The notes below the pieces were generated by a model. That model was not told the DNA's origin. It did not search any database and saw nothing but the letters and a program-made list of their open reading frames with translations. 64,000 nucleotides of DNA from Hydrogenophaga sp. PAMC20947 (GTDB lineage Bacteria; Pseudomonadota; Gammaproteobacteria; Burkholderiales; Burkholderiaceae_C). Shown piece by piece: positions 45,273 to 49,671 of the stretch. A program made the translations under genes and the position numbers. The first letter of the stretch is position 1, and each line of letters opens with the position of its first letter. Location: positions 2,356,001 through 2,420,000 of the forward strand of contig NZ_CP039252.1 in the NCBI RefSeq assembly GCF_004795855.1. The letters run 5' to 3'.

Positions 45273-45758
45273 AAGGCCTCCTGCAACCAGTTCATGTCAA
45301 CCCTCTTCAATCCACTTTGCGCCTGCAGCTGAAAGCATGAGAGGCTGAATGACCTCTATACCCGGCTTTGCAGTGGACTTTTTGTCACTCTAAGTGGTTA
45401 TTTGATACAGGTGACGTAACCATTTCACGAATAACACGCTTTGTTACCTTTGTTGCATTATGAATCTGATCACTTTATTTTCCATGTGCTAGCTTTTTTT
45501 GTAGCACGTATGTGCTGCGTATTCAGCTCCCCCGCCAACATGTCACCCGATTTACCTCATTTGAAGTCACATCTTTTAACTAACGTTTACACGCGATTGG
45601 TTACCCCTCCTCAAACCGTGACACTGAACCCAGACAAAGCGAAAAGCAATGCGCAGCCCCTCCAGGCCCAGCAAAGCCCACCGCCGAGTCACTAGGCTGG
45701 TGGCGCCGGAAACCTCCGACCCGCCGGGAAATGGGAATCAACTTTTTGGGGAAACATC
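45273..45758. promoter_or_regulatory. Divergent regulatory region of the fibre operon
   Basis: 486 AT-rich bp with no gene I believe. GGTGACGTAACC (45410-45421) is nearly palindromic; GTTACC (45443-45448) and GGTTAC (45599-45604) repeat its half. GTGCTA (45486-45491) and TAGCAC (45502-45507) flank a T-run, and AGCAC-GTAT-GTGCT overlaps it. These are candidate sites for the neighbouring response regulator. The fibre gene has GGGGA 7 nt before its ATG. Confidence 0.5.
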
Positions 45759-46205
45759 ATGAAAAAGCTTGTCATCATTGCATCAGCAGCTCTTGCATCT
45801 CTCGCCTTCGCTGGCGGTTCTGACCCAGAGATCGTCATCGACGGCAACTCGCTGCAAGTCGTAGCAGCAACATCTTCGGTCTTCCTGAACGCAGCAACAG
45901 GCGACGACGCCTATGCACAACAAAACGTGTCCAGCAACTCCGGAAACGTTGAAATTGACGGGACCTCGATTCAACTGACCGCAGCCCGCGGTTCGCTTGT
46001 GGCCAACCTCGCCTTGGGCGAAGACGCTTACGCCAGCCAGAACATTTCGTCGAACATCGGCAAAGTCAGCGTCGATGGCCTGTCAGTGCAGCTCACCGCG
46101 CTGAACAACTCGGGCGTGGTCAACGTGGCAGGCGAAGACACCCGGGCTATTCAAAACGTGGCCAGCAACAACGGTTGCGTGTCTTGCCAGCCCGGCCATC
46201 ACTAA
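45759..46205 (+). CDS. Secreted repeat protein, candidate curli-like fibre subunit
   Basis: A 148-residue exported protein. Signal peptide MKKLVIIASAALASLAFAGG. Three repeats of about 39 residues follow (25-63, 64-102, 103-139), consensus V-x-I-D-G-x-S-x-Q-L-x-A, then S-x-V-x-N-x-A, and G-E-D-A-Y-A-x-Q-N-V-S-S-N. Regular spacing of Asn, Gln, Ser and Ala with hydrophobic positions resembles the strand-turn-strand repeats of curli and Fap amyloids but is not the same motif. The tail NGCVSCQPGHH has a CxxC and two His. No catalytic domain. It is first in an operon with a CsgG-like channel, so I infer a surface fibre or coat subunit. Not named in any family I know. Confidence 0.75.
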   Translation: MKKLVIIASAALASLAFAGGSDPEIVIDGNSLQVVAATSSVFLNAATGDDAYAQQNVSSNSGNVEIDGTSIQLTAARGSLVANLALGEDAYASQNISSNIGKVSVDGLSVQLTALNNSGVVNVAGEDTRAIQNVASNNGCVSCQPGHH

Positions 46206-46211
46206 AGGGTA

Positions 46212-46248
46212 GCAGCGCTTCTCGGCCCTTCGGGGCTTGAAGCGTTGC
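46212..46248 (+). terminator. UUCG-capped hairpin after the fibre gene
   Basis: Outer arms GCAGCGCTTC/GAAGCGTTGC (one G-U pair) enclose GCCC-TTCG-GGGC, a stable UUCG tetraloop. There is no U-run, so it more likely stabilises the upstream mRNA end or causes partial termination than acts as a full stop. It lies 7 bp after the fibre stop and 32 bp before the next gene. Confidence 0.7.
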
Positions 46249-46279
46249 CAATCGATCACTTCACCGTCGAAGGTTTGCC

Positions 46280-46720
46280 ATGAAAACAGCTCAAGTTCTT
46301 TCAGGCGCCTTCGCCACGGTGGTTGCCCTCATGGGTGCGCTCACATGGCTCCCAGCGTTCGCTGCCCCTGGCGAAGACCCCATTCAACTCAACGGCCCGG
46401 TGCAATACCGGCTGATGCCCACTGCGCCACAAAACCGATCTGGCGACATGGACAGCGCCACCGACATTCCCGCCTGGATGCGCGCACGAATGACGCGTTA
46501 TGTGGCGAAAGCCTATTCGGCCACCGCCGACGATGGCTCGATTTACACCGACAACGACGTGGTAACCACCGTTCAGACCGAAGGCCTGAGAAAAACCTGC
46601 GTGCAAGAAGTCGGCTCCAACACCGTACCCGCTGGCGGCACCCTGGGCACGCGCTACGGACCACAAACACAGGACCAAGTGGTCGTCTTGCGAGGAGACC
46701 TCGTCAACGTTTGCCGATAG
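46280..46720 (+). CDS. Small secreted protein of the fibre operon
   Basis: A 146-residue protein, signal peptide to about residue 28 (WLPAFA-APGED). GAAGG precedes the ATG. The mature part has two Cys only (RKTCVQEV and the last-but-one residue, VNVCR), likely a disulfide, and the VVVLRGDLVNVCR tail is beta-strand-like. No family recognised. Placed between the fibre gene and the channel, like CsgE/CsgF or HfaD-type accessories, but shows no visible sequence similarity to them. Confidence 0.65.
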   Translation: MKTAQVLSGAFATVVALMGALTWLPAFAAPGEDPIQLNGPVQYRLMPTAPQNRSGDMDSATDIPAWMRARMTRYVAKAYSATADDGSIYTDNDVVTTVQTEGLRKTCVQEVGSNTVPAGGTLGTRYGPQTQDQVVVLRGDLVNVCR

Positions 46721-46757
46721 ACGATAGAACGAACAACAACCGAAGGTCGAGGTCATC

Positions 46758-48446
46758 ATGAACAAGCAGCAGCCCTTTGCCACCCCAATGGCACACCACA
46801 CACATAAACCCCTGTCCGTCTCCTTGGTGGCTGCCGCCTTGTTCATCAGTGGGTGTTCGACGCCTCTGGATGCCCGAAAAGACACGGGATTCCAATCGAA
46901 CGCTCATGCCATGGACCGGCCAGCGAACCGCCCGGTGCGCTCGTTGTCGAGCTTTTCGGACTCGCTCATGTGCATGGACCACATGTTCCGTGACGCCGAG
47001 GTTCCCACGACCTTGATCACCAGCAAACAAATCCCGGATTACTCTGGCCGTGTGCCCGTCGCCACCAAAGACATGATCATCACCGCGTTGTCTCAAATGT
47101 CACGGCTGAGCAACGCGTTCCGGTATGTGGATTTCGAAGTGGACATTGCGCGCCAGGACACGGTGCAAAACCTCACCACCATTCTGCTCAACAACAACCA
47201 GATCAAGTTGCAGCGCCCGGCGCTGTATGTTTCAGGGGCTGTGGCGTTTGTGGATCAAAACGTGATCAACAACCGCTTTGATGTCGGAACTTCGGCCTCG
47301 CGTCTGGAGACCGGGTTCAGCAAAGATAACAAGGCCACCATCATTGGCATGGACCTTCAGCTGGGCGACTTCCGCTCGCGCACCCTGATCCCTGGCCTAG
47401 ACTCGGCAAACGAGGTCATCGTCGGTTCAGGAGGGCAGGGTCTTGACCTTGCCGGGCGCATCGGCGACTACGGTTGGCAATTCAATGTCGGTCGCGACTA
47501 CACACAGGGATCGGGCGCAGCCGTTCGCACACTGGTCGACCTGGCCATGATCGAGCTGACCGGCAAATGGACCCGCCTGCCCTACTGGCAATGCCTCACG
47601 CTGGAGCAGGCCCACCCCTACTTTCAGCGTCAATTGCGCGATTGGTACGAGGAAGGCAGCACAGCCGTGCGTGGGGCTCTCGTGAAAAACTCCCTGGTGA
47701 GTGCAGGCTACCTGCCCGCCAACATCCAGGGCTTGCCTCTCAACCACCCCCAGATGCGCGACGCCATTTCCAGGTACCAGGCCGACCAAGGGATGGTGGT
47801 CACCGGGGTCGTGGATTTCATGACCTACGAACGCGCGCTGCGCCAGTATGTAGCTTTGGGCGACAAGGGGGAGTTGATTCGTGTTGGGTGGACGCCCACC
47901 GTGGATACACCCACGCAACCCAACATCAACGATGGCACGGTCACCGCAGCGCCCACAGGTGCACCCTACGGATCGCCACCCAACCCACTGGGCTTGAACC
48001 TGCAAATGGAAAACCTGGTGGCCGACAAGTCGAAATTCGAACAAGGCACACAAATATTCCTGTCAGCAACCGTGTCGCGGGCCGCACACCTCTACTGCTA
48101 CCTGCAGGCCTCGAACGGAAAGGTGCAGCGCATCTTGCCGAACCCCACCAACCGTGCGTCGCTCGTTTCAGCCAATCAAACCGTTCGCATTCCTGACTGG
48201 ATGGCGCCCAACCCAGGCTTCATACTGGACGCAGGCTTGCCCGGCAATGAAGCGGCCGCTTGCTTCGCCACCGGCGACGATGTCTTTGCGATGCTGCCAG
48301 CACCCATGCAAATTGATGGCTTGCAGCTGATAGAAGGATTTGAAGGCATGGACAGCATCCAAAAGGCTTTCGAACAAGCCGCTGTCGGCACCGAACTGAC
48401 CACCCAGCGCATGCAGTGGACATCGCTTCCACGCAACAGCCGCTGA
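46758..48446 (+). CDS. CsgG/HfaB-like lipoprotein channel with peptidoglycan-binding and DUF4384-like domains
   Basis: A 562-residue lipoprotein; lipobox FISGC puts the lipidated Cys at 33. Residues 62-282 follow CsgG order: ATKDMIITALSQM for the helix, RYVDFEV, then ALYVSGAVAFVDQNV for the strand after the membrane-facing region, IIGMDLQLGDFRSR for the second strand and AAVRTLVDLAMIELTGKW for the helix before the conserved aromatic-Cys end. Residues 305-365 are a PG-binding-1-type three-helix module (AISRYQADQGMVVTGVVDFMT). Residues 412-545 look like DUF4384 (IFLSATVSRAAHLYCYLQ, ILPNPTNRASLV, VRIPDW). CsgG forms a 9-fold outer membrane pore for curlin; the fused wall-binding domain is unusual. 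Assignment is by eye, needs profile confirmation. Confidence 0.75.
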   Translation: MNKQQPFATPMAHHTHKPLSVSLVAAALFISGCSTPLDARKDTGFQSNAHAMDRPANRPVRSLSSFSDSLMCMDHMFRDAEVPTTLITSKQIPDYSGRVPVATKDMIITALSQMSRLSNAFRYVDFEVDIARQDTVQNLTTILLNNNQIKLQRPALYVSGAVAFVDQNVINNRFDVGTSASRLETGFSKDNKATIIGMDLQLGDFRSRTLIPGLDSANEVIVGSGGQGLDLAGRIGDYGWQFNVGRDYTQGSGAAVRTLVDLAMIELTGKWTRLPYWQCLTLEQAHPYFQRQLRDWYEEGSTAVRGALVKNSLVSAGYLPANIQGLPLNHPQMRDAISRYQADQGMVVTGVVDFMTYERALRQYVALGDKGELIRVGWTPTVDTPTQPNINDGTVTAAPTGAPYGSPPNPLGLNLQMENLVADKSKFEQGTQIFLSATVSRAAHLYCYLQASNGKVQRILPNPTNRASLVSANQTVRIPDWMAPNPGFILDAGLPGNEAAACFATGDDVFAMLPAPMQIDGLQLIEGFEGMDSIQKAFEQAAVGTELTTQRMQWTSLPRNSR

Positions 48447-48483
48447 CCGGCAAGCTCGCCATCCGTTGCCACCAGGGGTTGCC

Positions 48484-49671
48484 ATGCGCCAGACTTTTTC
48501 GCTCAGTTGGCATGTGCAACTCCCTGTTCATGCTGTTGTGGTTGCGATCTGGGCGCTAACGCTGGTCACACCGGTTCAGGCGGGCACCCAGATTGCGCCC
48601 ACCGAAAGCCCAGACATTGGTGCACCCATTGAGCCATCCCCATGGCCATCATCGGACATGGCCCTGGACCCGATTGAGCCACGCCCTCTTCAACGCTTTG
48701 ATCCGCAAGATCTCGACACCACCAGCGAGCTCGCTGCATTGACTCGAATCGCAGATTCGCCCGCCGTCCGGGCACAATTGAAAAGCAAGCGGCGTCCCAG
48801 AAGCAGCGCTTACCTGTCCGCAGGCAACGCCGCTTGGACTCTGGGGCTGATCTATTTGCACGGGGCTGGCGTTCCACAGGATCTGAGCCAAGCCCACCTG
48901 TGGTTTGAACGGGCCTTGGCGTTGGGCGCTCGACAAGCGCTGGCGGGCATGGCCTGGTGCGCCATCGAAGGTTGTGCGGGCCTGCCGGAACCCTCCAAGG
49001 CCGAGCAATGGATTCGACCGCTTCGCGCCATCAACCGCCCCTTGGCACTCTATTTGCAATGGCTGGCGCTGGATCGCCTGAGGCCACTGCACACCGCGAC
49101 ACCCGACCTCCAGAACAACGATCTAGAACCACCACTCATCGCGCCGGAATTGCTGATCAGTGCAGCGCGCGCTGGCAACATCCACGCTTTGATCGAGCTG
49201 GGTTTGAATGCTGTGGCCAAGCAGCAGCCAGACAAAGCATTGAAGTACTTTCAACAGGCAGCAGGCGATTCGGCGATTGCTGCTGCCAATGCCGCCATCG
49301 TGGCGCAAGGCGAGCAGCCCCGGAACGACCCCAGAAGCGACGCCAGCAAAGTCGCCGCGGAACTGCTGAACCAGGCTCAGCGCTTTCACCGGGGCTCCGG
49401 CGTTTCCGTCAACTACTCCGAGGCCATCCGCCTCTACCGACTGGCTGACGCCAAAGGCAGCAAAGAAGCAGGGCGCATGCTGGCCCTGATCTATTCACGG
49501 CCATTGGTGGGGGGGAACGTGGATTTTTCCTGGTTCAGCCAGCTCAGCGAGCTGGACCTGACTCAATCGACCCCGGGCCTGCGGATCAAAACTGCGCCAC
49601 GCCAGCTGCAGCGCGAACGCACCCCCCTGATCGATCTGCTGCCTGAAAAGTGGCGGACCCGCATCTACTGA
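48484..49671 (+). CDS. Secreted Sel1-repeat protein of the fibre operon
   Basis: A 395-residue protein starting MRQTFSLSWHVQLP (AGGGG precedes) with signal peptide ending TPVQAG. Sel1-like repeats: NAAWTLGLIYLHGAGVPQD and AHLWFERALALGARQAL (about residues 120-160), then ALIELGLNAVAKQQPDKALKYFQQAAGD and FHRGSGVSVNYSEAIRLYRLADAKGSKEAGRMLALIY. Sel1 proteins scaffold protein complexes in the envelope; its place after the channel suggests an assembly or anchoring partner. Ends 37 bp before the convergent transporter gene on the other strand. Confidence 0.8.
   Translation: MRQTFSLSWHVQLPVHAVVVAIWALTLVTPVQAGTQIAPTESPDIGAPIEPSPWPSSDMALDPIEPRPLQRFDPQDLDTTSELAALTRIADSPAVRAQLKSKRRPRSSAYLSAGNAAWTLGLIYLHGAGVPQDLSQAHLWFERALALGARQALAGMAWCAIEGCAGLPEPSKAEQWIRPLRAINRPLALYLQWLALDRLRPLHTATPDLQNNDLEPPLIAPELLISAARAGNIHALIELGLNAVAKQQPDKALKYFQQAAGDSAIAAANAAIVAQGEQPRNDPRSDASKVAAELLNQAQRFHRGSGVSVNYSEAIRLYRLADAKGSKEAGRMLALIYSRPLVGGNVDFSWFSQLSELDLTQSTPGLRIKTAPRQLQRERTPLIDLLPEKWRTRIY

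Follow-up and report, generated by a model that had tools for sequence, protein, structure and literature searches.

The locus at positions 45273-49671 of the window, by which we mean the whole 64,000-nt stretch analysed here (contig NZ_CP039252.1, positions 2,356,001 to 2,420,000, in the complete 4.85 Mb genome of Hydrogenophaga sp. PAMC20947), raises the question of whether a repeat protein encoded beside a CsgG-like lipoprotein marks a further system for exporting surface fibres, and how such a system would relate to curli. Four genes lie in series on one strand (Table 1), encoding a repeat protein (SUB), a small secreted protein (SML), an outer-membrane lipoprotein (CSGG) and a Sel1-repeat protein (SEL1). 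The gaps between them are 74, 37 and 37 nt, the last being counted to the ATG at 48484, a likelier start for SEL1 (395 residues) than the TTG at 48466 (401 residues). A preliminary description had proposed a curli-like fibre export system here, and its open reading frames are confirmed by reading-frame and domain analysis. We conclude that the locus is probably dedicated to export and assembly at the outer membrane, by a system of the CsgG/HfaB class.

The assignment of CSGG to this channel class is well supported. The protein carries the lipobox of CsgG/HfaB-type outer-membrane lipoproteins, with a cysteine (Cys33) that is invariant in a 39-row alignment; a lipobox-like motif is present in 68 of 80 named loci. 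Domain searches add a PG_binding_1 domain, matched in 42/55 aligned relatives (E-value up to 0.1), and DUF4384 (residues 427-505). The CSGG profile matches HfaB with an E-value of 2e-10 and is closer to HfaB than to CsgG; the HfaB model NF037935 gives 21.2 bits (E 1.3e-4), under its curated 300-bit cut-off. In a Foldseek search against the PDB, the predicted model, which has the alpha/beta fold of CsgG, retrieves CsgG or curli-complex chains at all of ranks 1-25, and the alignment with CsgG spans 187 residues versus 118 for PelC. The hairpin stretch is present and strand-rich, with a weak amphipathic strand pattern and tips at a predicted local distance difference test (pLDDT) score below 50, and the pore loop is shorter than in CsgG. 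The preliminary description would have given up its CsgG/HfaB-like class if no CsgG profile matched residues 62-282, and PF03783 indeed gives no such match: CSGG falls under the Pfam cut-off, and one of 55 relatives matches, at E 0.072. We nevertheless let the fold comparison, with which the HfaB profile agrees, override this miss, and retain the class. Sequence searches of the PDB with CSGG, SUB and their profiles retrieved nothing relevant beyond domains that bind peptidoglycan, all with E-values of at least 0.1.

The four genes also travel together. Since the gene caller was crude, occurrences in the 80 named loci were counted by tblastn and profile hidden Markov models (HMMs), leaving out loci too short on one side (5 for SUB and SML, 5 for SEL1, 10 for all four genes, 10 for the regulator and 16 for the kinase). 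All four genes stand on one strand in 69 of the 70 testable loci, and in 60/60 once the 10 loci identical to profile-training loci are dropped; three loci, from Ottowia beijingensis, are near-duplicates of each other. Such figures place the gene set beyond chance and bear out the conserved neighbourhood that had been anticipated. Among 150 genomes of the family, 34 contain a CSGG relative, 19 of them (the present genome included) at about 50% identity or more, and the other 18 at this level have SUB, SML, CSGG and SEL1 in order in 18/18 loci. Two loci at 38-41% CSGG identity keep most of the set, and tblastn found no partner gene in 18 remoter loci (30% or less); in one of these, L052, a weak match of the SML profile (E 0.002) lies beside the remote CSGG relative. 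Carriers belong to Hydrogenophaga, Acidovorax, Polaromonas, Delftia, Comamonas, Limnohabitans and other genera. Apart from the four genes and the two-component pair, recurring neighbour clusters are mostly reading frames antisense to these six genes or lie far out.

SUB consists, as had been described, of a signal peptide and three 39-residue repeats; these are rich in N, Q, A and S. Its self-identity at lag 39 is 42%, a value reached by 0/20000 residue shuffles even if each may use its best lag between 12 and 59, and self-comparison by lag reveals no half-repeat periodicity within the unit. Across the family the number of repeats (HMM domains, named loci) varies from 2 to 7, three being usual, and 61 of 79 SUB proteins have a CxxC motif inside their last 45 residues. 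The predicted model is a beta-solenoid, with 10-residue blocks across residues 21-140 at pLDDT 74-93. Its top Foldseek match is the amyloid protein FapC; this match is weak (E 1.7e-4), with an E-value about 230-fold below that of the next. Pfam gives nothing convincing for SUB, and a protein search with its profile returned 171 matches, of which the 120 listed are nearly all unnamed or 'hypothetical', one bearing a stray label.

Some loci depart from this subunit pattern. Two Polaromonas loci, L219 and L210 (the latter identical to L040), have a tandem pair of SUB genes, an arrangement that resembles a major and a minor subunit. L049 and L050 are the most divergent loci. In L049, a two-repeat SUB is preceded by another SUB-like protein, longer (L049:5462-6163, 233 residues) and with simplified repeats, a minimal form of the subunit. 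Near the cluster in both divergent loci (L049:8718-9470 and L050:9294-10076) is encoded a protein that we take to resemble DUF2807; it contains a single SUB-like half-repeat, I-N-x-A-x-G-x-x-A-x-A-x-Q-N, and could be a nucleator or cap.

SML has no convincing Pfam family and is matched in 75/75 testable named loci. SEL1, in which the domain search finds three Sel1 stretches, is matched in 74/75; the miss, in L224, is probably an artefact of the position rule, since L224 is identical to L039, where tblastn finds SEL1.

The divergent regulator, described beforehand as LuxR-type, does have the expected helix-turn-helix and orientation; as it combines this motif with a receiver domain, it is a NarL-type response regulator, and a histidine kinase gene, which the preliminary description does not mention, follows it. 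The response regulator is divergent in 59/70 testable named loci and the kinase profile is matched in 50/64. A promoter consensus scan yielded 2 sites versus 1.5 expected, i.e., chance level, and terminator-like sites number 11 versus 6.2 ± 3.0 expected. The remaining 11 of the 70 loci (three from Limnohabitans and eight others, e.g., L180, L209, L212, L214 and L221) keep SUB and SML with no divergent response regulator scored within 4 kb, suggesting that the regulation may be replaceable.

How close is this locus to curli? Both combine a pore of CsgG fold, a repeat subunit with a signal peptide and a divergent regulator with a LuxR-type helix-turn-helix. The layout resembles that of curli loosely, since the subunit operon here includes the pore gene, an arrangement shared with hfaAB, and regulation falls to a response regulator with its kinase; the pore loop differs as well. 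The SUB unit of 39 residues contrasts with the repeat of about 20 in curli, and against 60 column-shuffled controls (CsgA being represented by no more than its first 120 windows) hhalign does not relate SUB to CsgA, shuffles scoring as well in 28/60 cases with single repeats and 31/60 with the 26-row alignment. Models of CsgE and CsgF match none of 20 carrier genomes (0/20 each), the Escherichia coli control being positive. The preliminary description is supported on both points, a repeat unlike the CsgA motif and no visible csgE or csgF homologue.

The Fap system offers a different likeness. FapC is reported to have N/Q-rich repeats of 38-39 residues, usually three, and a CxxC motif (PMC12392863; PMC6173800), features that recall SUB, although the long linkers of FapC are absent from it. 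The agreement in repeat length (39), count (three) and CxxC is suggestive only, because SUB proteins have anything between 2 and 7 repeats and none of the repeat-bearing Fap rows listed has CxxC in its last 60 residues (4 of 12 Fap loci gave no row). Repeat HMMs of SUB and Fap (the latter including 55 of 56 repeats) do not match in either direction, and hhalign shuffles are as good as the FapB/C match in 12/60 cases with single repeats and 6/60 with the 26-row alignment; SUB was rejected as a FapB/C homologue. A five-row FapF profile, run without a Fap-positive control genome, matches 0/20 carriers at E 0.001 or better. The FapD profile, which recognises two Fap-positive genomes at E 1e-86 or better, gives only weak, partial C39-type matches (E 1e-8 to 1e-11) in 5/20 carriers, either at a great distance from the locus or on a different contig.

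In the mechanism that we propose, Sec would export all four products, and CSGG would be lipidated and oligomerise into an outer-membrane channel that its extra peptidoglycan-binding domain may tether to peptidoglycan. SUB, whose linkage to the pore gene suggests that it is the cargo, would cross this channel unfolded and stack outside the cell into a beta-solenoid fibre or coat, possibly amyloid, with four strands per 39-residue repeat. SML could act as a secreted nucleator, anchor or gate and SEL1 as a periplasmic adaptor or chaperone replacing CsgE, while the two-component pair would switch the operon on. More tentatively, and with a good deal of doubt, the locus may represent a further class of functional amyloid, in which FapC-like four-strand repeats of 39 residues leave through a CsgG/HfaB-class pore tethered to peptidoglycan; this pore would have no long constriction loop and would work without CsgE, CsgF, FapD and FapF, using a Sel1 protein and SML instead.

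The affinity of CSGG for HfaB lends some weight to another view, namely that SUB and SML, displayed by CSGG, serve as a small surface anchor for exopolysaccharide, in an adhesion complex of the HfaABD type with no long fibre. The HfaB protein of Caulobacter is likewise an outer-membrane lipoprotein of the CsgG class and is encoded together with small secreted proteins, and a small secreted protein precedes the pore in one operon in hfaAB too (L168). HfaB, which HfaA and HfaD require for their targeting, has been called a putative translocon, and these two proteins reportedly are likely to form extended oligomers at the surface (PMC6707917). HfaB is the nearest precedent for CSGG-type export. 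SML matches the single HfaA sequence better than all 50 shuffles (0/50 as good), although we discount this match because it covers 7 columns at E 0.04. SUB itself gives no convincing match to an Hfa protein: shuffles are as good in 25/60 and 20/60 cases against one HfaA sequence, and in 3/60 (single repeats) and 8/60 against three HfaD sequences. CSGG moreover adds PG_binding_1 and DUF4384, and the locus adds the Sel1 accessory and the two-component pair. We regard an anchor without a long fibre as unlikely.

It is less probable still that SUB is a soluble secreted solenoid that does not polymerise, such as an adhesin or an ice- or ligand-binding protein; the FapC match so far ahead of the next one, the variable repeat number and the linkage to a CsgG/HfaB-class pore all argue otherwise. 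Least probable of all, in our opinion, CSGG would be a periplasmic lipoprotein ring resembling PelC, LptE or FlgT, without membrane hairpins, and SUB a periplasmic or separately exported solenoid. The Foldseek ranking and the longer alignment with CsgG than with PelC speak against this, as does, weakly, the amphipathic strand pattern in the hairpin stretch.

The export system favoured here appears to be undescribed, as was first supposed: in the open-licence literature on CsgG, HfaB, Sel1, amyloid and Comamonadaceae, no title among the matches listed concerns such a system, and none on DUF4384 concerns secretion. A 2012 curli survey includes two betaproteobacterial systems, both from Burkholderiales, and a term search of its text finds no mention of Delftia, Acidovorax, Comamonadaceae or HfaB. 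The pore class is already known, while the subunit family, the helper set and the pore architecture are, as far as these searches go, new. A published census counted CsgA or FapBC repeats when another csg or fap gene lay no more than 5000 bp away (PMC12822426), and a system of this kind would thus escape it. If our interpretation is correct, many common environmental genera possess an undescribed fibre-export system, which shows a CsgG-class pore working without CsgE and CsgF and provides a small, sequence-distinct repeat for comparison with CsgA and FapC.

Table 1. Features of the locus and its divergent regulatory genes (positions in the window)
Feature	Position	Strand	Remarks
Histidine kinase, 488 aa	42834..44300	-	HATPase_c; HisKA_3 slightly under cut-off; half of divergent two-component pair
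NarL/LuxR-type response regulator, 263 aa	44481..45272	-	Response_reg and GerE
Divergent intergenic region, 486 nt	45273..45758	.	Promoter scan at chance level; no Rfam match
SUB, repeat protein, putative exported subunit, 148 aa	45759..46205	+	Signal peptide, judged by eye, at roughly residues 1-18
SUB repeat 1	45831..45947	+	Residues 25-63
SUB repeat 2	45948..46064	+	Residues 64-102
SUB repeat 3	46065..46181	+	Residues 103-141
SUB C-terminal CxxC (Cys140, Cys143)	46176..46187	+	Almost invariant in 26-row SUB alignment
SML, small secreted accessory, 146 aa	46280..46720	+	Cys107 and Cys145 conserved in 20-row alignment
CSGG, outer-membrane lipoprotein, 562 aa, putative export channel	46758..48446	+	
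CsgG/HfaB-type domain of CSGG	46944..47603	+	Residues 63-282
PG_binding_1 domain of CSGG	47682..47831	+	Residues 309-358
DUF4384 / Ig-like C-terminal domain of CSGG	47985..48431	+	Residues 410-558
SEL1, Sel1/TPR-repeat protein, 395 aa	48484..49671	+	From ATG; signal peptide by eye

The genes 3' of SEL1 run in the opposite direction and are apparently unrelated; we take their products to be a drug-transporter-like and a DNA methyltransferase-like protein.

A second CsgG/HfaB-like family, of about 390 residues and with a profile match to CSGG at E 1.9e-18, is encoded in L059 and L061-L067 (e.g., L061:3021-8311 and L059:7375-12811). In L059 and L061, the two loci examined closely, it adjoins a secreted protein of 1170-1214 residues with many N-rich repeats, which has the appearance of a further export system whose subunit is giant. 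A small secreted protein of about 150 residues, related among these loci, precedes it in 8/8 of them; its kinship with SML was rejected, 11/50 shuffles being as good. A presumed OmpA-type protein is encoded nearby in L064 and L067.
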